NCBI GenBank assembly: GCA_000733915.1 | Contig: JPOM01000001.1 | Coordinates: 1,426,001 to 1,490,000 of the forward strand | Reading direction: 5' to 3' | Source of the DNA: Caulobacteraceae bacterium PMMR1 | Lineage (GTDB): Bacteria > Pseudomonadota > Alphaproteobacteria > Caulobacterales > Caulobacteraceae | Length of the DNA stretch: 64,000 bases | In this document: positions 28,366 through 37,873 of the stretch, one piece after another | Layout of the letters: every line of letters begins with the position of its first letter | Position numbering within the stretch: the stretch's first letter is position 1 | The notes under the pieces: generated by a model | Seen by the model: the letters and a program-made list of their open reading frames with translations, nothing else | What the model was told of the DNA's origin: nothing | Database searches by the model: none | Made by a program: the position numbers and the translations under genes

Positions 28366-29211
28366 TCACCCCACGAAGGCGCGTTCCAGCACGTAGTCGC
28401 CGGGCTCAGCGTTGGAGCCTTCGGTCAGGCCGTGGCGCTCCAGGATTTGGGCGACGGACTTGATCATCGCCATGGAGCCGCAGAGCATGACGCGGTCCTT
28501 CGCCGGGTCGAACTGCGTCTGCCCGACGCCCAGGTCGCGGAACACGCGGCCGCTCTCGATCAGGTCGGTGATGCGGCCGGGCGTCTCGAACGGCTCGCGC
28601 GTCACAGTCGGGTAGTAGCTGAAGCGCTCCGCCGCGAGCTCGCCCACCAGCGGGTCCTGCGCCAGCTCGCGCGTGAAGAAGTCGCGATAGGCGAGGTCCT
28701 TCACCTCGCGCACCGTGTGGGTCACGATCACCCGCCCGAAGCGCTCGTAGGCGTCCGGGTCGCGCGCCACCGCCAGCCAGGGCGCGAGGCCTGTGCCGGT
28801 CCCGATCAGCCACAGCCGCTCGCCGGGCGTCAGCGCGTCCAGAACCAGGGTGCCGGTGGGCTTCTTGCCCAGGAACAGCTGGTCCCCGGGACGGATGTGC
28901 TGCAGGCGCGAGGTCAGCGGGCCGTCGGCAACCTTGATGGAGAAGAACTCCAGCTCCTCGGCGAAGCAGGGCGAGGCGACGCTGTAGGCGCGCAGGATCG
29001 GCTTGCCGCCCTCGCCGGGCAGGCCGATCATCACGAACTCGCCGGAGCGGAAGCGGAAGGTCTCCGGCCGGGAGACGGCGAAGGAGAAGTACTGATCCGT
29101 CCAGTGCCTGACCCAGAGCACGTCGACGACGTGGTGGACCGCGCTCTCCAAGCGGATCGCGGGGGGCGTGGTCTCGGCCTGCGCGTCGCGCGCGGCGGCG
29201 GATTGGCTCAT
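28366..29211 (-). CDS. fpr: Ferredoxin/flavodoxin-NADP reductase
   Basis: FAD enzyme that moves electrons between NADPH and ferredoxin or flavodoxin. The 281-residue protein has the FAD-binding RxYS block (ILRAYSVASPCFAEELEFFS), the NADP-binding LWLIGTGTGLAPWLAVARDP and the C-terminal DYVLERAFVG with a terminal aromatic/hydrophobic tail. An N-terminal extension of about 20 residues precedes the usual start. It closes the cys operon, 19 bases after cysH, and may supply electrons to CysI, since no cysJ flavoprotein is present. Confidence 0.94.
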   Translation of the reverse strand: MSQSAAARDAQAETTPPAIRLESAVHHVVDVLWVRHWTDQYFSFAVSRPETFRFRSGEFVMIGLPGEGGKPILRAYSVASPCFAEELEFFSIKVADGPLTSRLQHIRPGDQLFLGKKPTGTLVLDALTPGERLWLIGTGTGLAPWLAVARDPDAYERFGRVIVTHTVREVKDLAYRDFFTRELAQDPLVGELAAERFSYYPTVTREPFETPGRITDLIESGRVFRDLGVGQTQFDPAKDRVMLCGSMAMIKSVAQILERHGLTEGSNAEPGDYVLERAFVG

Positions 29212-29230
29212 GGGGCGGCGAGGGTCCGTG

Positions 29231-30022
29231 TCAGATGGTGTCGCCCAGCCCCCGGTCGGGGGTCGAGGCGTCGGCGGCTCGAGGCGTATGTATGCCGCAT
29301 TCGCTCTTGTCGGAACCCGCCCAGCGCCCGGCCCGCACGTCCGCGTTGGGATCGTCCACCGCGCTGGTGCAGGGCCAGCAGCCCACCGAGGGGTAGCCGA
29401 AGGCCACCAGCGGATGGGGCGGGAGGTCGTGCCGGGCGGCGTAGGCGTCCAGCTCGGCCTTCGACAGATTGGCGAGGGGATTGTACTTCACGCGCCCGTC
29501 CTCGGCGCGCTCCACCACCGGCAGGCTGAGCCGCGCCCCGCCGTGGAACCGCTTGCGACCGGTGATCCAGGCGTCGAAGCCGCCCAGCGCCCGGTCGAGC
29601 GGCAGCACCTTGCGGATGCGGCAGCAGGCGTCGGTGTCGCTCTTCCAGAGGTCGGCCCTGGGATCGGCGACGGCAAGGTCGGCGAAGCTCGGGCGGATGT
29701 CGCGCACGTCCCTCAGGCCCAGCCGCTTGGCCAGGTTTTGGCGGTAGTCCAGCGTCTGGGCGAAGAGCTGGCCGGTATCCAAGAAGACGACCGGGATCGC
29801 CGGATCGACCTCGGCGGCCATGTGCAGCAGCACCGCGGACTCCGCCCCGAAGGACGACACCAGGGCCAGCCGGCCGGGGTGAGCGGCCAGGGCGGCGCGG
29901 ATGATCTCGACGGGGGCGGCGTGGCGGAGCCGGGCCCCTTCCCCGCCGAGCGAAGCCGGATCGGCCCGCTGAGCGGCGTCGCCGTCGCGCTCCCGCGGCG
30001 GGGGCGAAAGTCGGTTCATCAC
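29231..30022 (-). CDS. cysH: Adenylylsulfate (APS) reductase, CysH family with [4Fe-4S] cysteines
   Basis: Reduces activated sulfate to sulfite. The 263-residue protein has the PP-loop-like LVSSFGAESAVLLHMAAEVD, the cluster cysteines CC at 133-134 (TDACCRIRK) and C-x2-C at 215/218 (GCWPCTSAVD). The catalytic cysteine is in the ECGIH motif (C242). The cluster cysteines indicate that APS, not PAPS, is the substrate. In the KRF block the residue after F is His where many relatives have Gln. Its start overlaps the DUF934 stop. Confidence 0.94.
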   Translation of the reverse strand: MMNRLSPPPRERDGDAAQRADPASLGGEGARLRHAAPVEIIRAALAAHPGRLALVSSFGAESAVLLHMAAEVDPAIPVVFLDTGQLFAQTLDYRQNLAKRLGLRDVRDIRPSFADLAVADPRADLWKSDTDACCRIRKVLPLDRALGGFDAWITGRKRFHGGARLSLPVVERAEDGRVKYNPLANLSKAELDAYAARHDLPPHPLVAFGYPSVGCWPCTSAVDDPNADVRAGRWAGSDKSECGIHTPRAADASTPDRGLGDTI

Positions 30023-30525
30023 GACCTCCGTTCCGCCCAGGCGGGCGGGCGGGCGTCGGAGGCGGCCTGGTAGACGTGGCGGTAGAGGCTGAGCTTGGCC
30101 TCCAGCTGCTCGGGCGTCGTGCCGTCCGCGAAGACGAAGGCGTCCACGCCCACCCGCGCCAGAAGGTGCGCCTGCTCGCGCAACACCTCGCCCACCGCTC
30201 GCACCTCGCCCTTGAAGGCGTAGCGCTGTCGAAGGAGGGCGGCTGTGGAGTAGGCGCGGCCGTCGCGGAACTTCGGCAGGTTGAGCGCCACCATCGAGAG
30301 CCGCGGCAGGTCGTAGGCGAGGTCCTCCACCGCCTCCTCCGGCTGCAGCAACACGCCGATCCGAAGGCCCTCGTCCAGGAGCGCCGGTCCCTGCTGCTGG
30401 AAGCGCGCGAGCGGCATCAGCACCGCCGGGCCGTCCGGCAGCGGGCCGTCCAGCGGCGCCTCGGCGAAGGGATCGCGCGCCGCGATCACCGCACGCCCGC
30501 CTTCAAGCCGGATGAGCGTCGGCAT
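30019..30525 (-). CDS. DUF934 family protein of sulfate assimilation
   Basis: A 168-residue protein with the DUF934 core: GVLLQPEEAVEDLAYDLPRL, VALNLPKFRDGRAYSTAALL, RQRYAFKGEVRAVGEVLREQ and the Cys-free but conserved GVDAFVFADG. The function has not been established biochemically, but the family is almost always found between the sulfite reductase and CysH genes of proteobacteria, as here, and is thought to help sulfite reduction. It overlaps cysI by 23 bases and cysH by 4. Confidence 0.92.
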   Translation of the reverse strand: MPTLIRLEGGRAVIAARDPFAEAPLDGPLPDGPAVLMPLARFQQQGPALLDEGLRIGVLLQPEEAVEDLAYDLPRLSMVALNLPKFRDGRAYSTAALLRQRYAFKGEVRAVGEVLREQAHLLARVGVDAFVFADGTTPEQLEAKLSLYRHVYQAASDARPPAWAERRS

Positions 30526-32191
30526 AGACCGCCTCCTTGAAGGGCTGCAGCCCGACCCGGGCGTAGGTGTCCACGAAGCGCTCGCCCGGAGCGCGGGCCC
30601 GGCGATAAGCGCCCACGACGGCCTCCACCGCCTCGGCGACGCGGGCGTAGGGCAGCGCAGGGCCCAAAAGGTCGCCCAGACGCGAACGGTCGCCGGCGGC
30701 GTCCCCGTCCGCCTCGCCCCCCAGGGTCAGCTGGTAGAACTCTTCTCCGCGCTTATCGACGCCCAGGATGCCGATGTGGCCCACGTGGTGGTGTCCGCAG
30801 GCGTTGATGCAGCCGGAGATCTTGATCTTCAGCTCGCCCACGTCCTCGGCGAGTTCGGGGTCGGCGAAGCGGGCCGCGATCTGCTGGGCGATGGGGATGG
30901 CCCGTGCATTGGCCAGGGCGCAGTAGTCCAGGCCCGGACAGGCGATGATGTCGCTGGCGAGGTCGAGGTTGGGCGTGGCCAGCCCGATCTCGGCCAGTCT
31001 CGCGTGCACCGCTGGCACGTCGTCGAGCGCCACATGCGGCAGCACGAGGTTCTGCGCATAGGTCAGGCGCACCTCGTCGAAGCTGAACCGCGCCGCCAGC
31101 TCGGCGATGGCGTCCATCTGGTCCGCAGAGCAGTCGCCGGGAACCTCGCCGGGAGTCTTCAGGGCGATGTTCACGAGCGCATAGCCGGCCTGCTTGTGCG
31201 CCACGACGTTGCGCCGGGCGAAGCGGGCGAAGGCCGGATCGGCCGCCTTGGCCGCTTCGAAGGCTGCCGAACGGGCCGGACGCGCCTCGAAGGCGGGCGC
31301 TCCGAAGGCGCCGCGGATGCGGGCGAGCTCATCGTCGGGCAAATCGACCGCGGCGTGGTCCATGGCGCGCCACTCGGCCTCGACTTGACGGCCGAACTCC
31401 TCTGCGCCCAGGCTCTGCACCAGGACCTTGATGCGCGCCTTGTGGATGTTGTCGCGCCGGCCGTGGCGATTGTAGACCCGCAGGATCGCAGCCACGTAGC
31501 TCAGCAGGTGCTGTGCAGGCAGGTGCTCGCGGATGGTCTGGCCGAGGATGGGCGTGCGTCCGAGCCCGCCGCCGACCAGAACCCCGAACCCAAGCGCGCC
31601 GTCGCGATTGCGACGAAGCTTCAGACCGATGTCATAAACCCTTACTGCCGTTCGATCTCTCGCCGAAGCGGTGACAGCGATTTTGAACTTGCGCGGCAGA
31701 TAGCTGAACTCGGGGTGGACGGTGGACCACTGCCGGAGCGCCTCGGTCCAGACGCGCGGGTCGTCGACCTCGTCCGCCACCGCGCCCGCATAAGGGTCCG
31801 AGGTGATGTTGCGAATGGTGTTGCCCGAAGTCTGGATGGCGTGCAGCCCGACCTCCGCCAGGCTGTCCAGGATGTCGGGGGCGTCCTTTAGCCGGATCCA
31901 GTGCAGCTGCAGGTTCGTGCGCGTCGTGAAGTGGCCGTAGCCGCGATCCCACGTCCGCGCGACGTGCGCCAGCCGGTGCAGCTTGGCGGAGTTCAGCGAC
32001 CCATAGGGGATCGCGATGCGCAGCATATAGGCGTGCAGCTGCAGATAGAGGCCGTTCATGAGCCGCAAAGGCTTGAACTGATCCTCGCTCAGCTCGCCGG
32101 AGAGGCGCCGGGCCACCTGGGCGCGGAACTCCGCGCAACGGTCGGCGACGATGTCGCGGTCGATCTGGTCGTAGCGGTACATCGCGCTCAC
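30503..32191 (-). CDS. cysI: Assimilatory sulfite (nitrite/sulfite) reductase hemoprotein
   Basis: Siroheme-[4Fe-4S] enzyme that reduces sulfite to sulfide with six electrons. The 562-residue protein has two ferredoxin-like plus siroheme half-domains. The cluster cysteines are in CPGLDYCALANARA and KISGCINACGHHHVGHIGIL (C-x5-C and C-x3-C). Basic siroheme-site residues lie in HFTTRTNLQLHWIRL and SGNTIRNITSDPYAG. The ATG overlaps the upstream DUF2849 stop by four bases. The electron donor is probably ferredoxin or the adjacent fpr product, as there is no cysJ. Confidence 0.95.
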   Translation of the reverse strand: MSAMYRYDQIDRDIVADRCAEFRAQVARRLSGELSEDQFKPLRLMNGLYLQLHAYMLRIAIPYGSLNSAKLHRLAHVARTWDRGYGHFTTRTNLQLHWIRLKDAPDILDSLAEVGLHAIQTSGNTIRNITSDPYAGAVADEVDDPRVWTEALRQWSTVHPEFSYLPRKFKIAVTASARDRTAVRVYDIGLKLRRNRDGALGFGVLVGGGLGRTPILGQTIREHLPAQHLLSYVAAILRVYNRHGRRDNIHKARIKVLVQSLGAEEFGRQVEAEWRAMDHAAVDLPDDELARIRGAFGAPAFEARPARSAAFEAAKAADPAFARFARRNVVAHKQAGYALVNIALKTPGEVPGDCSADQMDAIAELAARFSFDEVRLTYAQNLVLPHVALDDVPAVHARLAEIGLATPNLDLASDIIACPGLDYCALANARAIPIAQQIAARFADPELAEDVGELKIKISGCINACGHHHVGHIGILGVDKRGEEFYQLTLGGEADGDAAGDRSRLGDLLGPALPYARVAEAVEAVVGAYRRARAPGERFVDTYARVGLQPFKEAVYADAHPA

Positions 32192-32547
32192 TTCTTTCGG
32201 ATCAGGCCGAGGCGTCCGGCCGAGCGCGCCGCGCCCGTGGCGGCTTGCATGGCGCGGATCACCGCCCCGCCTTCCGCCTGCTTGCCCAGGTCGGGATGGA
32301 TGGTCGGGCCGAGCGCGCGCACCCGCTCGCGGAAGGCCACGGGCACGAGGACGCCGTCCGCCTCCTCGAGGTCAATCAGGTACGGGTCCACGACAACGGT
32401 GGGCTGGGCGCGCGCAAGGGCCGCCGCCGCCTCGGCGGGCCCGGACTCGGCGAAGAGCTCCGCGTCGGCGAAGCGCCTGACCCAACGGCCCTCGCACCAG
32501 AACACGACGTCGCCGTCGTCCAGGCGATTTGCGGTGAGGGCTTTCAC
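32188..32547 (-). CDS. DUF2849 family protein of the cys operon
   Basis: A 119-residue protein beginning KALTANRLDDGDVVFWCEGR and ending with a basic KK tail. The block DPYLIDLEEADGVLVPVAFR is typical of the family. The biochemical role is unknown. The gene is consistently found between the siroheme methyltransferase and sulfite reductase genes in alphaproteobacteria, which implies a part in sulfite reduction or siroheme handling. It overlaps both neighbours by four bases. Confidence 0.9.
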   Translation of the reverse strand: MKALTANRLDDGDVVFWCEGRWVRRFADAELFAESGPAEAAAALARAQPTVVVDPYLIDLEEADGVLVPVAFRERVRALGPTIHPDLGKQAEGGAVIRAMQAATGAARSAGRLGLIRKK

Positions 32548-33413
32548 GCGCCCCTCCGCCTGGCGCCGAGGGCGGGCCCTTCCCCGGCGAGGGCGGCAAG
32601 CGCCGCGGCTCGGAGGCTGTCGCGCGCGGGAGCGAGCCTCTCAGCCACGCCTGCCGCCTCGCCCACGATCAGCACCGCCGGGCCGTCGAGGTCCGCCACC
32701 GCCTCGGGTAAGGTGGCGAGCGTCGCCAGGCGGCTCCGCTGGCCGGGGAGCGAGGCGTTCTCGACCACCGCGACGGGGGTGCCGGGCGCGCGCCCGGCCG
32801 CGATCAGCCGCTCGGCGATCGTCCCCGCCGTGGACACCGCCATGTAGAAGACCACGGTGTGATTGGGCCGCGCCAGGCTCACCCAATCTAGGTCGGGGGC
32901 GCGACCCTCAGGGGCGGCGTGACCCGTCGCCAGCGTCACGGCCTGGGCCAGCCCGCGGTGGGTCAGGGGCGCGCCGACGGCTGCAGCCGCAGCCAAGCCG
33001 GCGGTGATCCCGGGCACGACCTCGCAGGCGACGCCAGCCTCCAGGCAAGCGATCAGCTCCTCGCCGCCGCGGCCGAACACGAAGGGATCGCCGCCCTTCA
33101 GCCTCACGACCGTCTGGCCCTCGCCGGCAAGCGCCACGAGGAGCGCGCAGATGTCGTCCTGGGGCAGGCTGTGGTTCGACTTGCGCTTGCCGACGTAGAG
33201 TCGCCGGGCGTCGGGCCGGGCGAGGTCCAAGATCGCTTCCGGCACGAGGCGGTCGTGCACGACCACGTCGGCTGCGGCGAGCGCGCGCGCGGCCTTGAGC
33301 GTCAGGAGCTCCGGGTCGCCAGGACCTGCGCCCACCAGCCAGACCTTGCCCGCATGCGCCGGCGTCCCGCCGGACAGGGGCGCAAGATGGCGGGCGGAGC
33401 GTGGGCGGGACAT
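32544..33413 (-). CDS. cobA: Uroporphyrinogen-III C-methyltransferase (siroheme synthesis)
   Basis: SAM-dependent enzyme making precorrin-2 for siroheme, the CysI cofactor. The 289-residue protein has the P1 loop VWLVGAGPGDPELLTLKAAR, the P2 loop VVRLKGGDPFVFGRGGEEL, VVPGITAGLAAAAAVGAPLT and FYMAVSTAG. It resembles the C-terminal half of CysG only. The ferrochelatase/dehydrogenase half is absent and must be encoded elsewhere. ATG at 33413 was chosen over an upstream open frame because the family sequence begins shortly after it. It is the first gene of the sulfate operon. Confidence 0.94.
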   Translation of the reverse strand: MSRPRSARHLAPLSGGTPAHAGKVWLVGAGPGDPELLTLKAARALAAADVVVHDRLVPEAILDLARPDARRLYVGKRKSNHSLPQDDICALLVALAGEGQTVVRLKGGDPFVFGRGGEELIACLEAGVACEVVPGITAGLAAAAAVGAPLTHRGLAQAVTLATGHAAPEGRAPDLDWVSLARPNHTVVFYMAVSTAGTIAERLIAAGRAPGTPVAVVENASLPGQRSRLATLATLPEAVADLDGPAVLIVGEAAGVAERLAPARDSLRAAALAALAGEGPALGARRRGA

Positions 33414-33602
33414 CGGGAGAGCCTGGTCCTCATGCGCGTCGTCACGCCCCCGGCCATTGCGGAAAGGCGGAGCGGACCTAACAAGGTCCACCCCGCCGCC
33501 GCCCGGAACCGAGGGCCTTCTACGGCGCCGGATGCTTGCAAAGTGGGCGGTCGCGGGCCACCTCGCAAACGACCAAGTCTTCAGGGGGCATCAGCAAATC
33601 TG

Positions 33603-34547
33603 ATGGAGCGTCGTCGCCTGCCGCCCTTGAACGCGCTACGTGCGTTCGAGGCTGCGGCCCGTCACATGAACTTCAGCCGCGCGGCGGACGAGCTGTCGGT
33701 CACGCCGGGCGCGGTAAGCCAGCAGATTCAGAACCTCGAGGACTATATCGGCGCAGCGCTTTTCCGGCGCACGCCGAAGGGCCTGCTCCTGACCGACGCC
33801 GCCCAGACCGCCCTGCCTGCGCTCCGCGAAGCCTTCGACCGCCTGGCCGAGGCTGCGTCCCAGCTGACCGCCAATGTCGACGGGCGGCGCGTGACCGTGT
33901 CCGCCCCGCCCTCCTTCGCGGCCAAGTGGCTGGTGCCGCGGCTCGGGCGCTTCGAGCAGGCCCACCCGGAGGTGGACGTCTGGCTGTCGGCCGGCATGGA
34001 GCTGGTGGACTTCGCCAACGGCGAAATCGACTTGGCGGTGCGCTATGGCTCGGGTCGCTATCCGGGGCTGGAGGTGACGCGCCTGATGTCGGAGACGGTG
34101 GGGCCCGTCGCCGCCCCGGCCCTCCTGGCCGAAAAGCCGCTGCGCACGCCCGAGGATCTGGCTCACCACGTCCTGCTTCACGACGGCTCGCCCGATGCCG
34201 ACGAGAGCTGCCCGGACTGGTCCATGTGGCTGGCGGCGCGCGGCGTGAAGGGGGTCGACGGCGCCCGCGGACCGCGCTTCAACCAGTCGAGCCTGGTCAT
34301 CGAGGCGGCGATCAGCGGCCGGGGGGTGGCGCTCGCCAAGTCCGCTCTGGCCCAGAACGACCTCGACACCGGCAAGCTGGTGGCGCCGCTGCAGATCTCG
34401 ACCGCCGTCGACTTCGCCTACTATGTGGTGCACCCCAAGGCGAAGGGGCGCATGAAGCAGGTGCGGGCCTTCGTGAGCTGGCTCCAGGCCGAGGCCGCCC
34501 AGCACGAGGCGGCGCTCCGCGCCCTCGACATCGGCGCCGGCATCTGA
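33603..34547 (+). CDS. LysR-family transcriptional regulator (GcvA-like)
   Basis: A 314-residue LysR regulator. The winged helix-turn-helix covers residues 1-62 (LPPLNALRAFEAAARHMNFS, VTPGAVSQQIQNLEDYIGAA). The effector domain continues with VSAPPSFAAKWLVPRLGRFE and SLVIEAAISGRGVALAKSAL, the GcvA/AmpR-like subgroup. The ATG at 33603 was chosen because the helix-turn-helix follows at once. A long open frame extends upstream, but it is antisense to cobA. It is divergent from the sulfate operon across 189 bp and only 13 bases from chorismate mutase, so it could control either side. Confidence 0.93.
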   Translation: MERRRLPPLNALRAFEAAARHMNFSRAADELSVTPGAVSQQIQNLEDYIGAALFRRTPKGLLLTDAAQTALPALREAFDRLAEAASQLTANVDGRRVTVSAPPSFAAKWLVPRLGRFEQAHPEVDVWLSAGMELVDFANGEIDLAVRYGSGRYPGLEVTRLMSETVGPVAAPALLAEKPLRTPEDLAHHVLLHDGSPDADESCPDWSMWLAARGVKGVDGARGPRFNQSSLVIEAAISGRGVALAKSALAQNDLDTGKLVAPLQISTAVDFAYYVVHPKAKGRMKQVRAFVSWLQAEAAQHEAALRALDIGAGI

Positions 34548-34560
34548 CAGCCACGCCGGC

Positions 34561-34902
34561 ATGAGCGATCCGACCCGTCCGACGTCCCTCGCCGTCGATC
34601 CGCGCCCTGCGCCGGAGGCCTGCCAGACCATGGCGGAGGTCCGCGTCGGGGTGGACGCGCTGGACCGCGCGCTCGTCCAGCTCCTGGCCGAGCGCCAGCG
34701 CTACATGGACGCTGCCGCGCGCATCAAGGGCGACCGGGGCGTGGTGCGCGATGCGGCCCGCATCGAGGACGTCGTGGCCAAGGTGAAGGCGAGCGCGCGC
34801 ACGGCCGGCCTTTCGGAGGCCATCGCCGAACCCGTCTGGCGCACCCTGATCGACCGCTGCATCGCCTATGAGTTCGGCGTCTGGGACCGGCTGCGGGGCT
34901 GA
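34561..34902 (+). CDS. Monofunctional chorismate mutase (AroQ class)
   Basis: Converts chorismate to prephenate for phenylalanine and tyrosine. The 113-residue all-alpha protein has the AroQ pattern: RVGVDALDRALVQLLAERQR on helix 1, RYMDAAARIKGDRGVVRDAA with the catalytic Arg/Lys, and PVWRTLIDRCIAYEF on the last helix. The 25-residue N-terminal extension before the helix is disordered-looking. It lies 13 bases after the LysR gene and 44 bases before the ATP-grasp gene, all in the same direction. Confidence 0.92.
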   Translation: MSDPTRPTSLAVDPRPAPEACQTMAEVRVGVDALDRALVQLLAERQRYMDAAARIKGDRGVVRDAARIEDVVAKVKASARTAGLSEAIAEPVWRTLIDRCIAYEFGVWDRLRG

Positions 34903-34946
34903 GGCGCCCTTGACCCGCCCGTCTCCGGCGTGATTTGCCGCCCCCT

Positions 34947-35882
34947 ATGGACGCCGCTCTCCCCGACCTCGCCGTGTTCTACGAGCACCCGCAGTGGTTC
35001 CGGCCGCTGTTCGAGGTGCTGGACCGGCGCCGGCTGAACTGGACGGCGATCCCGATCCAGGACCACGTGTTTGATCCCGCCGACCGCCGACCGCCAGCGC
35101 GGGTCGTGCTGAACCGGCTGGCCATGTCGTCCTTCCTGCGCCAGTCGGAGCACGCGCTCTTCTACACCCAGGCGGTGCTCGACCACTGGGCGGGGGCGGG
35201 GGCGCAGGTCGTGAACGGCGCGGGCGTCCTGAACTACGACCTGAACAAGGCCCGCCAGCTCAGCCTGTTCGCGCGCCTTGGCCTCGCCATTCCTAAGACC
35301 CGGGTGGCGCACCGGCGCGAGGACACGCCCCGCCTGGCCGCCGAGATCGGCTATCCTGTGCTGGTGAAGGCCAATGTGGGCGGCTCGGGCGCGGGCATGA
35401 TCCGCTATGACGATCCCGACCAGCTGGCGGAGGACGCCGCCTCGTGCCTCACCCCCGTGGGCGTGGACGGCGTGGCGCTGGTGCAGGCCTATGTGCCGGC
35501 GCGCGGCGGCCGGGTGATCCGCTGCGAGGTGCTGGCCGGGCGCCTGCTCTACGCCATCGCCCTGGACGGCGCGGGCTCGACCTTCGACCTTTGCCCGGCC
35601 GACGTCTGCATGGTGGACAAGCCCAGCGTCACCATCAGCGCCTTCGAGCCGCCGCCGGAGATCGCCGCCGCCGTGGAGCGGGTCGCAGCGGCGGCGGGCC
35701 TGGATGTCGGGGGGATCGAGTACATGATCGACGACCGGGACGGCGCGCCCCGCTTCTATGACCTGAACGCGCTTTCCAACTTCGTCGCCAAGCCGCTGGA
35801 AGTGCTGGGCTGGGACCCGCACGAGCGCCTGGTCGACGAGCTGCAGCGCCGGATCGGCGAGGGAGCGCGCGCGGCCGCATGA
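34947..35882 (+). CDS. ATP-grasp ligase-like protein (RimK/D-Ala ligase fold)
   Basis: A 311-residue ATP-grasp protein. The pre-ATP-grasp half (1-110) has YEHPQWFRPLFEVLDRRRLN and ends at NYDLNKARQLSLFARLGLA. The ATP-grasp half has the glycine-rich loop YPVLVKANVGGSGAGMIRYD, VQAYVPARGGRVIRCEVLAG and the metal-site block RFYDLNALSNFVA. Such enzymes form an amide or ester from a carboxylate and an amine or thiol using ATP. The substrate is unknown. ATG at 34947 is preferred to a TTG twelve bases upstream. It overlaps the next gene (ATGA), so the two act together. Confidence 0.85.
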   Translation: MDAALPDLAVFYEHPQWFRPLFEVLDRRRLNWTAIPIQDHVFDPADRRPPARVVLNRLAMSSFLRQSEHALFYTQAVLDHWAGAGAQVVNGAGVLNYDLNKARQLSLFARLGLAIPKTRVAHRREDTPRLAAEIGYPVLVKANVGGSGAGMIRYDDPDQLAEDAASCLTPVGVDGVALVQAYVPARGGRVIRCEVLAGRLLYAIALDGAGSTFDLCPADVCMVDKPSVTISAFEPPPEIAAAVERVAAAAGLDVGGIEYMIDDRDGAPRFYDLNALSNFVAKPLEVLGWDPHERLVDELQRRIGEGARAAA

Positions 35883-36916
35883 GATACGGTTTCTGGACTC
35901 CCGTCTTCGGCGGCTGGCTGCGCAACGTGCGCGACGAGGGCATGAGCGCGAGCTGGGACTATGTCAGCCGCCTGTGCCGCCGCGCGGAGCAGATCGGCTA
36001 TGACCTGACGCTCGTCGCCGAGCTGAATCTGAACGACATCAAAGGGATCGAGCAACCCGCGCTCGACGCCTGGTCCACCGCCGCAGCCCTCGCCGCCGTC
36101 ACCGAGCGGCTGGAGCTGATGGTGGCGGTGCGACCCAACTTCCACCACCCGGCGCTCCTGGCCAAGCAGGCGGCCAACATCGACAACATCGCGGGCGGGC
36201 GGCTGGCGCTGAACGTCGTATCCTCCTGGTGGGCGCAGGAAGCCGAGAGCTACGGCCTGCAGTTCGACCAGCACGACGACCGCTATGCGCGCACGTCGGA
36301 GTGGCTGGACGTGGTGGACGGCCTCTGGCGGGAACCGCGCTTCACGTACCAGGGACAACGCTACCAGCTTCAGGACGCGATCTGCGCGCCCAAGCCTGTG
36401 CGCAAGCCGGTGATCTACGCGGGCGGCGAATCGGAAGCCGCCAAGTCGATGATCGCCGCCCAGTGCGACGCCTACGTCATGCATGGCGACACGCCCGAGG
36501 TGATCGCGCCCAAGATCGCCGACATGCGCGCCCGCCGCGACGCCGCAGGCAAGCCGCCGATGATCTACGGCATGGCGGCCTACGCCATTGTGCGCGACAC
36601 CAAAGCGGAGGCGAAGTCGGAGGTTGAGCGGATCACGACCCTTGATCCCGCCGCGCCCGGTTTCGCCAACTTCGACCAGTGGCTCTCCGGCACCCAGCTG
36701 GAGCGCGAGCTGAAGATCCAGGAGTACAGCGTCTCCAACCGCGGCCTGCGGCCCGGTCTGGTCGGCACGCCCGAGCAGGTGCGGGCGCGCATCGCGGAGT
36801 TCGAGGCCGCGGGCGTTGACCTGCTCCTGCTCCAGATGAGCCCGCAGCTGGAAGAGATGGAGCGCTTCGCCGCAACGGTGATCGCCCCCGTGGCGGAACA
36901 TAGCGCGCCGGCTTAA
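35879..36916 (+). CDS. Luciferase-like (LLM class) flavin-dependent monooxygenase
   Basis: A 345-residue bacterial-luciferase-fold oxygenase that would use reduced FMN and O2. Visible blocks are RYGFWTPVFGGWLRNVRDEG, DLTLVAELNLNDIKGIEQPA, VAVRPNFHHPALLAKQAANI, DNIAGGRLALNVVSSWWAQE and YAGGESEAAKSMIAAQCDAY. It is nearest in feel to the SsuD/SfnG group that acts on organosulfur or organonitrogen compounds, but the substrate is unknown. It overlaps the ATP-grasp gene and ends 45 bases before cyoA. No flavin reductase is adjacent. Confidence 0.88.
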   Translation: MRYGFWTPVFGGWLRNVRDEGMSASWDYVSRLCRRAEQIGYDLTLVAELNLNDIKGIEQPALDAWSTAAALAAVTERLELMVAVRPNFHHPALLAKQAANIDNIAGGRLALNVVSSWWAQEAESYGLQFDQHDDRYARTSEWLDVVDGLWREPRFTYQGQRYQLQDAICAPKPVRKPVIYAGGESEAAKSMIAAQCDAYVMHGDTPEVIAPKIADMRARRDAAGKPPMIYGMAAYAIVRDTKAEAKSEVERITTLDPAAPGFANFDQWLSGTQLERELKIQEYSVSNRGLRPGLVGTPEQVRARIAEFEAAGVDLLLLQMSPQLEEMERFAATVIAPVAEHSAPA

Positions 36917-36961
36917 GGTTCAGGTCGCGCGGGCGGGACCTTGCGGGCCGGCGGACCGGAA

Positions 36962-37873
36962 ATGGCCAGGCGTTCGATATCGGGTTGCGATAGACTGATC
37001 GTCCTTGGCCTGGCGGCGGTGTCCCTGTTCGGCTGCTCCGGCGTTCTGAACCCGGCCGGCCCCGTCGGGCGCGACGACGCGATCATCCTAATCGACGCGC
37101 TCTTGATCATGCTGGCGATCGTGATCCCCACGATCCTGCTCGCCTTCTGGATGGCCTGGCGCTATCGCGCGTCCAACACCAAGGTCGAGTACCTGCCGAA
37201 CTGGTCCTACTCGGGCCGCATCGAGGCGGTGGTCTGGTCGGTGCCGATCCTGACCATCATCTTCATCAGCGGTGTGATCTGGATCGGCTCCAACCGGCTA
37301 GACCCCTACCGCCCCCTCCCCTCCAAGACGCCGCCCGAAGAGGTCCAGGTGGTGGCGCTCGATTGGAAGTGGCTGTTCCTCTATCCGCGCGAGGGCGTGG
37401 CCACCGTGAACCAGCTGGTGGTGCCTGCGGGCGCGCCGGTGCATTTCCAGATCACCTCGGCCAGCGTCTTCAATGTCTTCTTCATCCCGCGCCTGGGCTC
37501 GATGATCTATGCCATGCCGGGGATGACATCGCGGTTGTGGCTGCAAGCCGATCGACCGGGGGTGCTCTGGGGCCAGTCGGCGCATTTCAGCGGCGACGGC
37601 TTTTCCGACATGCAGTTTCAGGTCCGAAGCGTCGCCCCCGGCGAGTTCGCCGCCTGGGCGCAGCAGGCGAAGAGCGCGGGCCCGCCGCTGAACGAAGCGG
37701 CCTACGCGCGCCTCACCCGGCAGAGCCAGCACGTCCCGCCCATGAGCTTCAGCCGGTTCGACCCCGACCTGTTCAAGTTGATCGCGTCCCAGAAGGTGGC
37801 GCCCGGACCCGGCCCGGAGCCAGAGAACCCGAGCCACGCCGGCCGCGTAACCTCCACGGGGGGGCGTCACTGA
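36962..37873 (+). CDS. cyoA: Cytochrome o ubiquinol oxidase subunit II
   Basis: Periplasm-facing subunit of the heme-copper quinol oxidase. The 303-residue protein has a lipoprotein signal with lipobox LFGC (C25), two membrane helices (about 40-65 and 85-110) and a cupredoxin-like domain. [19 protein letters not shown] lacks the CuA cysteines and histidines of cytochrome c oxidases, so quinol is the electron donor. ATG at 36962 was chosen to give the signal peptide directly. The stop overlaps the cyoB start (TGATG). Confidence 0.95.

Follow-up and report, generated by a model that had tools for sequence, protein, structure and literature searches.

A conserved two-gene module of an ATP-grasp ligase and a luciferase-like monooxygenase with a possible role in sulfur scavenging

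Background

Soil and water commonly contain sulfonates of amino acids as well as oxidised sulfur amino acids; their use as sulfur sources by aerobic bacteria is only partly known. SsuD and MsuD are FMNH2 enzymes of sulfur starvation. The ligases LysX, ArgX and RimK join an acidic amino acid through its amine. The present work concerns a pair of genes that encode a RimK-like ATP-grasp ligase and a flavin-dependent monooxygenase of the luciferase-like monooxygenase (LLM) class. The pair lies in a stretch of 64,000 nucleotides of the genome of Caulobacteraceae bacterium PMMR1 (contig JPOM01000001.1, positions 1,426,001 to 1,490,000), hereafter the window.

The scm (yxe) and cmo (ytm/ytn) operons of Bacillus subtilis include transporters. 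In both salvage pathways an amine is blocked before flavin-dependent C-S cleavage, as described for N-acetyl-S-(2-succino)cysteine (PMC12757645) and for S-alkylcysteines (PMC10863075). An N-acetyltransferase and a deacetylase take part there, whereas the present pair includes an ATP-grasp ligase and lacks a conserved deacylase; YtnJ/CmoJ, the enzyme of that route with a solved structure, shares 22-23% identity with the LLM protein of the window at a fold Z score of 32-33. A cluster of the Bacillus type with these two enzymes was not found around the pair, as only the ligase and the LLM gene recur widely. The cysteate-degrading enzymes CuyA and CuyB are described in PMC11382572, and the sulfonate-binding residues of MsuD (W195, R225 and R296) in PMC8234197.

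A description of a pathway with the ligase and LLM pair was not found in open-licence PubMed Central (titles and abstract starts), which leaves uncontradicted the statement of the sequence-only reading of this DNA that it knew no characterised pathway of this kind. The literature on homocysteate and monooxygenases in the same collection likewise gave no paper that describes the combination in its title or abstract start.

Results and discussion

Conservation of the gene pair

The ligase and the LLM gene form a real conserved two-gene module, and this conclusion is solid. Among 199 Caulobacteraceae genomes (E value up to 1e-40 for the ligase and up to 1e-90 for the LLM) the ligase was found in 26 and the LLM in 25, all of them among the 26. 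Because 25 genomes carry both genes, one carries the ligase only, none the LLM only, and 173 neither, a functional link between the two is strongly supported (Fisher p 7e-31 for co-occurrence, phylogeny not corrected). The sequence-only reading had left the conservation of the pair across Caulobacterales to be established; the pair proves to be kept in these Caulobacteraceae and also occurs in Sphingomonadales and Xanthomonadales.

The two genes adjoin each other in 23 of the 26 Caulobacteraceae loci. In the ligase-only genome (G185) a residual match to LLM residues 291-337 (47 residues, 55% identity) lies at the end of the ligase gene. At this Brevundimonas locus (L026/L143), on a contig of a draft or metagenome-assembled genome (MAG), the ligase gene is intact and the LLM gene a remnant. 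The locus of G124 is broken by a contig end, and a separate contig of that genome starts with the final part of a ligase gene, followed by the LLM in two frames. In G016 the genes are non-adjacent: the ligase is at 0.32 Mb and LLM copies are at 1.50 and 1.56 Mb. These copies (contig C1, about 1501728 and 1564585; L255 and L256) are 99% identical over 1080 bases and stand 63 kb apart, and one of them adjoins a nitrilase-family gene that scores under its model's cut-off.

Junctions were compared at 24 loci with both genes, i.e., the 23 adjacent Caulobacteraceae loci and L044. The genes overlap by four bases in 19 of them and by one base in three, and gaps of 15 and 21 bases separate them in the other two. 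A +14 junction class (19 of 95) is probably produced by the gene caller picking an internal Met 18 bases downstream.

A scan of named genomes, of which the best 80 of 287 relatives were kept, showed the LLM adjoining the ligase at 76 loci, the four others being L085, L124, L143 and L086 (a contig end). According to the record titles these loci belong to Caulobacterales, Sphingomonadales (Sphingomonas, Novosphingobium, Glacieibacterium and others) and Xanthomonadales (Rhodanobacter, Luteibacter, Dyella and Pinirhizobacter). In the family of the Sphingomonas genome G755 (locus L144), 21 of 199 genomes have the ligase at 1e-60, with an adjacent LLM in 18. The class sample yielded the ligase at 1e-30 in 14 of 289 genomes: apart from the genome of the window, these hold 13 weak relatives (27-36% identity), within 1.5 kb of which no LLM was found. 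In phylum samples the ligase was present at 1e-30 in two of 299 genomes, one being the window's own, and the LLM at 1e-60 in five of 249: the window's own, G685 (together with the ligase) and three with the weak LLM relatives L147-L149 (36-40% identity), within 1.5 kb of which no ligase relative was found. In the class of G756 the LLM was detected at 1e-90 in one of 321 genomes, G756 itself. The distribution of the module is patchy, and its surroundings vary widely.

The distance matrices of the two proteins across 70 loci correlate with r 0.84, against a maximum of 0.12 in 2000 permutations, shared ancestry being uncorrected in this comparison. In both unrooted trees the Xanthomonadales members cluster with Caulobacter and Phenylobacterium, and Brevundimonas stays outside this group. 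The grouping differs from the species order and fits joint transfer of the ligase and the LLM. One record (L132, G757) is labelled Candidatus Eremiobacteraeota; the LLM encoded there and that of the window are 83% identical. Around this record, the phylum sample shares genomes G848, G958 and G985 with the samples of the Sphingomonas family and of the G756 class. For both reasons the label seems wrong.

Re-pairing in distant bacteria

A stronger argument for a joint function than adjacency is that each partner has been swapped while the combination was retained. When plasmids were scanned, the window ligase had a single relative, in Spirosoma (E value up to 1e-20), and the LLM had two, in Deinococcus (E value up to 1e-60). 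On the plasmid of Spirosoma oryzicola a ligase gene, whose product is 40% identical to the window's, is followed by two APC amino acid permease genes and then by an LLM gene. The Spirosoma LLM is 25% identical to that of the window, scores 227 bits against the SsuD model (cut-off 518) and retains the W, R, H, R and Y positions of SsuD, for which we assume the SsuD numbering. The Spirosoma ligase also matches an alpha-L-glutamate ligase (29% identical) on five Pediococcus plasmids.

Plasmids of Deinococcus peraridilitoris and D. deserti carry a gene for an ATP-grasp protein of 426 residues, which is followed by an LLM gene whose product is 58-59% identical to the window's (59% in D. deserti). 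This ATP-grasp protein matches the window ligase over at most 64 residues (26%). In D. deserti the genes of a cysteate racemase, CuyB (271 bits, cut-off 190; annotated in the record as amino acid racemase), and of a D-cysteate sulfo-lyase, CuyA (535 bits, cut-off 450; annotated as D-cysteine desulfhydrase), lie upstream of the ATP-grasp gene with four-base overlaps. Cysteate degradation by CuyA and CuyB thereby adjoins an LLM of the window subfamily, although it is itself a lyase route without oxygen.

Families and folds of the two proteins

The ligase exceeds the Pfam cut-offs of RimK (PF08443; 31.4 bits, cut-off 21) and CPSase_L_D2 (29.7 bits, cut-off 19.8). Its best NCBIfam model is TIGR00768 (RimK family alpha-L-glutamate ligase, rimK_fam), at 59.1 bits for a cut-off of 143.4, and the archaeal LysX equivalog TIGR02144 gives 42.2 bits for 275.6; among the best 25 models listed, no NCBIfam cut-off was reached by either the ligase or the LLM. 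The predicted structure (predicted local distance difference test score, pLDDT, 88.8) is closest to the solved fold of LysX 3vpd (Z 27.1, root-mean-square deviation 2.5, 273 aligned residues, 22% identity), followed by ArgX 3vpb (Z 26.8) and RimK 7qyr (Z 25.6). The folds of these enzymes are thus the nearest ones (Z 25-27 over 249-276 residues), but the window ligase is 16-23% identical to them and stays under the NCBIfam cut-offs, and a small carrier-like gene does not recur beside pairs of the window type in the neighbourhoods compared. Residues K101, K141, E258, D272 and N274 are invariant in all 56 aligned sequences; their presumed catalytic roles are taken from ATP-grasp enzymes.

The motif F-x-L-C-P-A-[DE]-x-C is common to a wider ATP-grasp family and occurs, by the pattern used, in 11 of 13 distant members. 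Two distant ligase relatives (L031:3-2454 and L032; 35-36% identity) come from two genomes of one genus. They are preceded by an O-succinylhomoserine sulfhydrylase-like gene (scored for L031 only), again a sulfur gene, and by a small gene that we take by its look to be OsmC-like.

The LLM protein belongs to Bac_luciferase (PF00296; 207.9 bits, cut-off 27.9). The best-scoring named NCBIfam model is that of the dimethylsulfone monooxygenase SfnG (TIGR04021), at 233 bits for an equivalog cut-off of 382.95; the alkanesulfonate monooxygenase model of SsuD (TIGR03565) gives 169 bits for 518.2. The closest solved chains to the predicted structure (pLDDT 85.7) are 3rao of Bacillus cereus (Z 42.8, 54% identity) and 8vw6, deposited as SsuD (Z 42.4, 52%); no paper was found in the literature for 8vw6. 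The next folds are SfnG (Z 39.5) and MsuD (Z 36.2). SfnG resembles the LLM in fold (Z 38.5-39.5) at 30-32% identity, but its sulfone substrate has no amine. SsuD and MsuD share the fold as well (Z 34-36), and the partner monooxygenase of Spirosoma is of similar type; unlike SsuD and MsuD, the window LLM comes with a ligase.

Genes near the pair

In 20 neighbourhoods and the window the ligase family occurs 21 times, the LLM 19 times and the next family four times. In a set of 88 neighbourhoods (the 80 named loci, the window and seven others) the ligase is present in 84, the LLM in 81 and the next group, mixed ABC ATPases, in 14. The recurrent MetNIQ-like, SDF, CysE-like and TauE neighbours suggest a sulfur amino acid as the substrate. 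This sulfur and amino-acid context is an addition to the sequence-only reading.

At L144 (Sphingomonas) a CysE-like gene, the ligase, the LLM and MetN-, MetI- and MetQ-like genes stand head to tail with overlaps at four of the five junctions. The CysE-like gene exceeds the EpsC cut-off (166 bits, cut-off 150); the MetN/MetI/MetQ-like genes stay under their NCBIfam cut-offs, and the MetQ-like one reaches the Pfam cut-off of NlpA lipoprotein. MetN-MetI-MetQ-like genes are found on the same strand at 11 loci, after the LLM in eight and before the ligase in three (L089, L100 and L104). Four loci (L138, L184, L185 and L190) have a same-strand SDF-family symporter gene with a four-base overlap with the LLM, the best NCBIfam models being GltP (L138) and DctA (L184), both far under cut-off. 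A ProV-like gene and an OpuAC-permease fusion lie upstream, also on the strand of the pair, in Rhodanobacter (L086, L095 and L097). TauE genes are near four loci (L079, L082, L127 and L193) and CysE-like genes near five (L126, L127, L128, L138 and L144), and at L066 a gamma-glutamyltransferase gene stops 15 bases upstream of the ligase. Relatives on the opposite strand, namely of SDF at L107 (27% identity) and of gamma-glutamyltransferase at L196 (30%), were not counted as operon members.

In Novosphingobium olei (L104) the order is as follows: an NtaA/DmoA-family monooxygenase (569 bits, cut-off 280), a TauD-like gene (226, cut-off 313), MetNIQ-like genes, the pair, an SsuA-family gene (184, cut-off 164) and an SsuD-like gene (245, cut-off 510). 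A small GNAT-family gene stands directly after the LLM in L084 and L093 and near the pair in L088.

A patchy cassette of two genes with amino acid transporters nearby could also serve for detoxification, the enzymes conjugating and oxidising an amino-acid-like antimetabolite that has been imported. The CysE-like, CuyAB, SsuA and TauE neighbours point to the use of sulfur rather than to resistance, and we regard such a role as improbable.

Some further neighbours were noted. At L074 (G027, a Caulobacter MAG) a MetQ remnant of the last 48-50 residues is separated by 15 bases from the ligase that follows it. At L079 (2603-3268) and L082 (4034-4714) a DsbA-like gene with a thioredoxin fold lies one base upstream of the ligase, and a second DsbA-like gene and the TauE gene follow past the LLM at both. 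A crotonase gene adjoins the LLM in L252 and L253 and was dropped as a partner, its single match elsewhere being weak (L077, amid acyl-CoA genes by their look). The downstream gene common to L071 and L068 was considered as a crotonase too and is not similar to those of L252 and L253.

Proposed function

We propose, with a probability of about 0.4, that the pair is a self-contained sulfur-scavenging module in which the ligase caps the amine of an organosulfur amino acid and the LLM cleaves its C-S bond; on balance we favour sulfur scavenging of some kind as the role of the pair. The RimK/LysX-like ligase would spend ATP on an amide bond to the amine of an organosulfur compound of the amino-acid type. 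The most plausible candidates are amino-acid sulfonates, for instance cysteate or homocysteate, which are analogous to Asp and Glu. With FMNH2 and O2, the LLM would then break the C-S bond of the capped compound, yielding sulfite, or sulfur in another oxidised form, together with an aldehyde; the sulfur would pass through sulfite reductase into cysteine synthesis. The cap would turn a zwitterion into a substrate acceptable to an alkanesulfonate-type monooxygenase, and since ordinary peptidases could remove a peptide-like cap, two genes would be enough. Cysteate and homocysteate mimic Asp and Glu and so would fit an SDF-type symporter and ligases of the RimK/LysX type, while sulfite as a product would fit the TauE, CysI and CysE neighbours. 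We infer that both enzymes act on one molecule and in this order, as well as the substrate class, amide formation before oxidation, the sulfite product and the removal of the cap.

A narrower version seems doubtful as a whole. According to it, an amino-acid sulfonate (cysteate, homocysteate or kin) would be peptide-capped by the ATP-grasp enzyme and desulfonated, with release of sulfite, by an LLM of a new sulfonate-binding type; the pairing would have arisen repeatedly, with a different ligase in Deinococcus and a different monooxygenase in Spirosoma, and would spread as a two-gene cassette. If capping before cleavage is correct, flavin-driven C-S cleavage gains an ATP-dependent step, two genes annotated so far by fold alone receive functions, and a short panel of substrates can be named.

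Several observations weigh against capping and C-S cleavage. The first concerns the substrate site of the LLM. In an alignment with SsuD and MsuD the protein has H202, A233 and no aligned Arg in place of W195, R225 and R296 of MsuD, and H202 and A233 are invariant in all 45 aligned sequences. A stretch NRGLRP with invariant R288 and R291 lies, by eye, roughly at the place of the sulfonate loop RGGA, and might stand in for the sulfonate residues. The lack of these residues, together with SfnG as the best named model, would rather suit salvage of S-alkylated cysteine or of methionine-type thioethers, sulfoxides and sulfones, in which the ligase replaces the N-acetyltransferases of the Bacillus scm and cmo pathways. 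The MetNIQ-like importers, the gamma-glutamyltransferase gene at L066 and the analogous Bacillus pathway speak for such salvage too. However, CuyA and CuyB in D. deserti, the SsuD-like partner in Spirosoma, SsuA at L104 and TauE point to sulfonate and sulfite, and S-alkyl salvage appears unlikely.

The other observations that count against capping and cleavage concern the partners and the context. Three divergent Sphingomonadaceae ligases (44-45% identity) have no LLM, and the re-pairing comes from one Spirosoma and two Deinococcus plasmids. The sulfate assimilation set near the pair was matched in the window only. MetQ-family lipoproteins do not track the cassette, as only four of the 67 genomes positive for them among 179 Caulobacteraceae carry it, and the window genome has none; MetQ was therefore rejected as an obligatory partner. 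At the proteobacterial pair loci compared, CuyA and CuyB had no match at E 1e-12. Neither a flavin reductase nor a deacylase was identified as a partner, a genome-wide search for them not having been made.

The statistical weight of the sulfur context was estimated for 103 unique pair loci within a 6 kb range and 60 control stretches; L100, L128 and L187 were left out, as the gene calls there lacked a ligase. Escherichia coli sulfur queries including MetQ, MetI and CysE matched at 13 of the 103 pair loci and at none of the 60 controls (p 0.0019), and with post hoc queries added the counts became 22 of 103 and 0 of 60. A first test with 20 controls had given 15/103 against 0/20 (p 0.13, not significant). 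These figures, too, count against the proposal in part. MetQ, MetI, CysE, TauE and the transporters became queries after they had been sighted at L144 and other loci, and without the post hoc queries the matches shrink to two of 103 (L104 and the window) against 0 of 60, which is not significant. The p-values are also overstated because the loci are related and hence non-independent. Finally, the 6 kb range around 81 of the 103 loci contained no sulfur or amino-acid transport gene of the kinds sought.

Two more explanations gain from these counts. Dipeptide antibiotics are built by ATP-grasp ligases, and a patchy two-gene cassette in changing surroundings, with only two loci matched by sulfur queries chosen beforehand, might make a small modified dipeptide or amide natural product by ligation and then oxygenation, the sulfur neighbours being incidental. 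The adjoining transporters, however, are of importer-type families (binding-protein ABC, SDF and APC), and in the neighbourhoods compared no other biosynthetic gene is found repeatedly next to the pair, so that we hold a natural product to be quite unlikely. The uninformative surroundings of the 81 loci would equally agree with linked genes that act on different molecules, as hitch-hiking or co-regulated enzymes. The absence of LLM-only genomes among the 199 Caulobacteraceae, the co-occurrence without adjacency in G016 and the re-pairing of both members with other partners argue against separate molecules, and there is little to recommend this explanation.

Since the choice of queries weakens the counts, the argument for capping and cleavage draws its weight from the overlapping operons, from the occurrence of MetNIQ on either side of the pair, and from the re-pairings. 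The strict-query result lowered our probability for this proposal from 0.42 to 0.40, and our confidence in the narrower desulfonation version was reduced slightly as well.

Features of the window

The features are collected in Table 1. The overlap of the ATP-grasp and LLM genes noted in the sequence-only reading is borne out by two intact frames, and the junction reads ...GCCGCATGAG. That reading also placed LysR and chorismate mutase genes before the pair and cyoA after it: the positions and families are right by Pfam and NCBIfam, but LysR and chorismate mutase are not conserved with the pair. Both were rejected as members of the module, as chorismate mutase stands beside the pair at no other locus compared and LysR has elsewhere upstream one distant relative (28% identity, L027).

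Table 1. Coordinates of the ligase and LLM pair and of the genes around it in the window
Feature	Position	Strand	Evidence or status
RimK-like ATP-grasp carboxylate-amine ligase	34947..35882	+	intact open reading frame from ATG, 311 aa
LLM-class FMN-dependent monooxygenase	35879..36916	+	intact open reading frame from ATG, 345 aa
ATGA stop/start overlap of ligase and LLM, 4 bases	35879..35882	+	sequence
FDLCPADVC motif, ligase residues 213-221	35583..35609	+	both cysteines invariant in 56/56 aligned sequences
LysR-family regulator, GcvA type	33603..34547	+	context
Chorismate mutase type II domain protein	34561..34902	+	context
Sulfate assimilation genes (CysH, CysI/NirA-like, CobA/CysG)	29231..33413	-	divergent context; NCBIfam
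cyoA-like terminal oxidase subunit II	36962..37873	+	context; COX2 and COX_ARM

No promoter or terminator pattern was found in a search of 33300-37100, and at 11 sulfur-context loci and the window the Rfam gathering scores were reached by tRNAs only, with no RNA switch. The LysR gene scores 360 bits against the NCBIfam model GcvA (cut-off 288), and the chorismate mutase gene 64.6 against Pfam CM_2 (cut-off 27). The window LLM is the single one of its kind in the genome (one contig, 2.67 Mb, 99.9% complete), where no further relative was found at E 1e-5.

On the minus strand (28366-33413) an FNR-like reductase gene lies beside the sulfate assimilation set. CysH reaches 268 bits (NCBIfam cut-off 154), the uroporphyrinogen-III methyltransferase is also over its cut-off, and the CysI/NirA-like reductase is under all NCBIfam cut-offs. 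Two short proteins beside this reductase have no NCBIfam match; for members of the set we presume the names DUF934-like and DUF2849-like.

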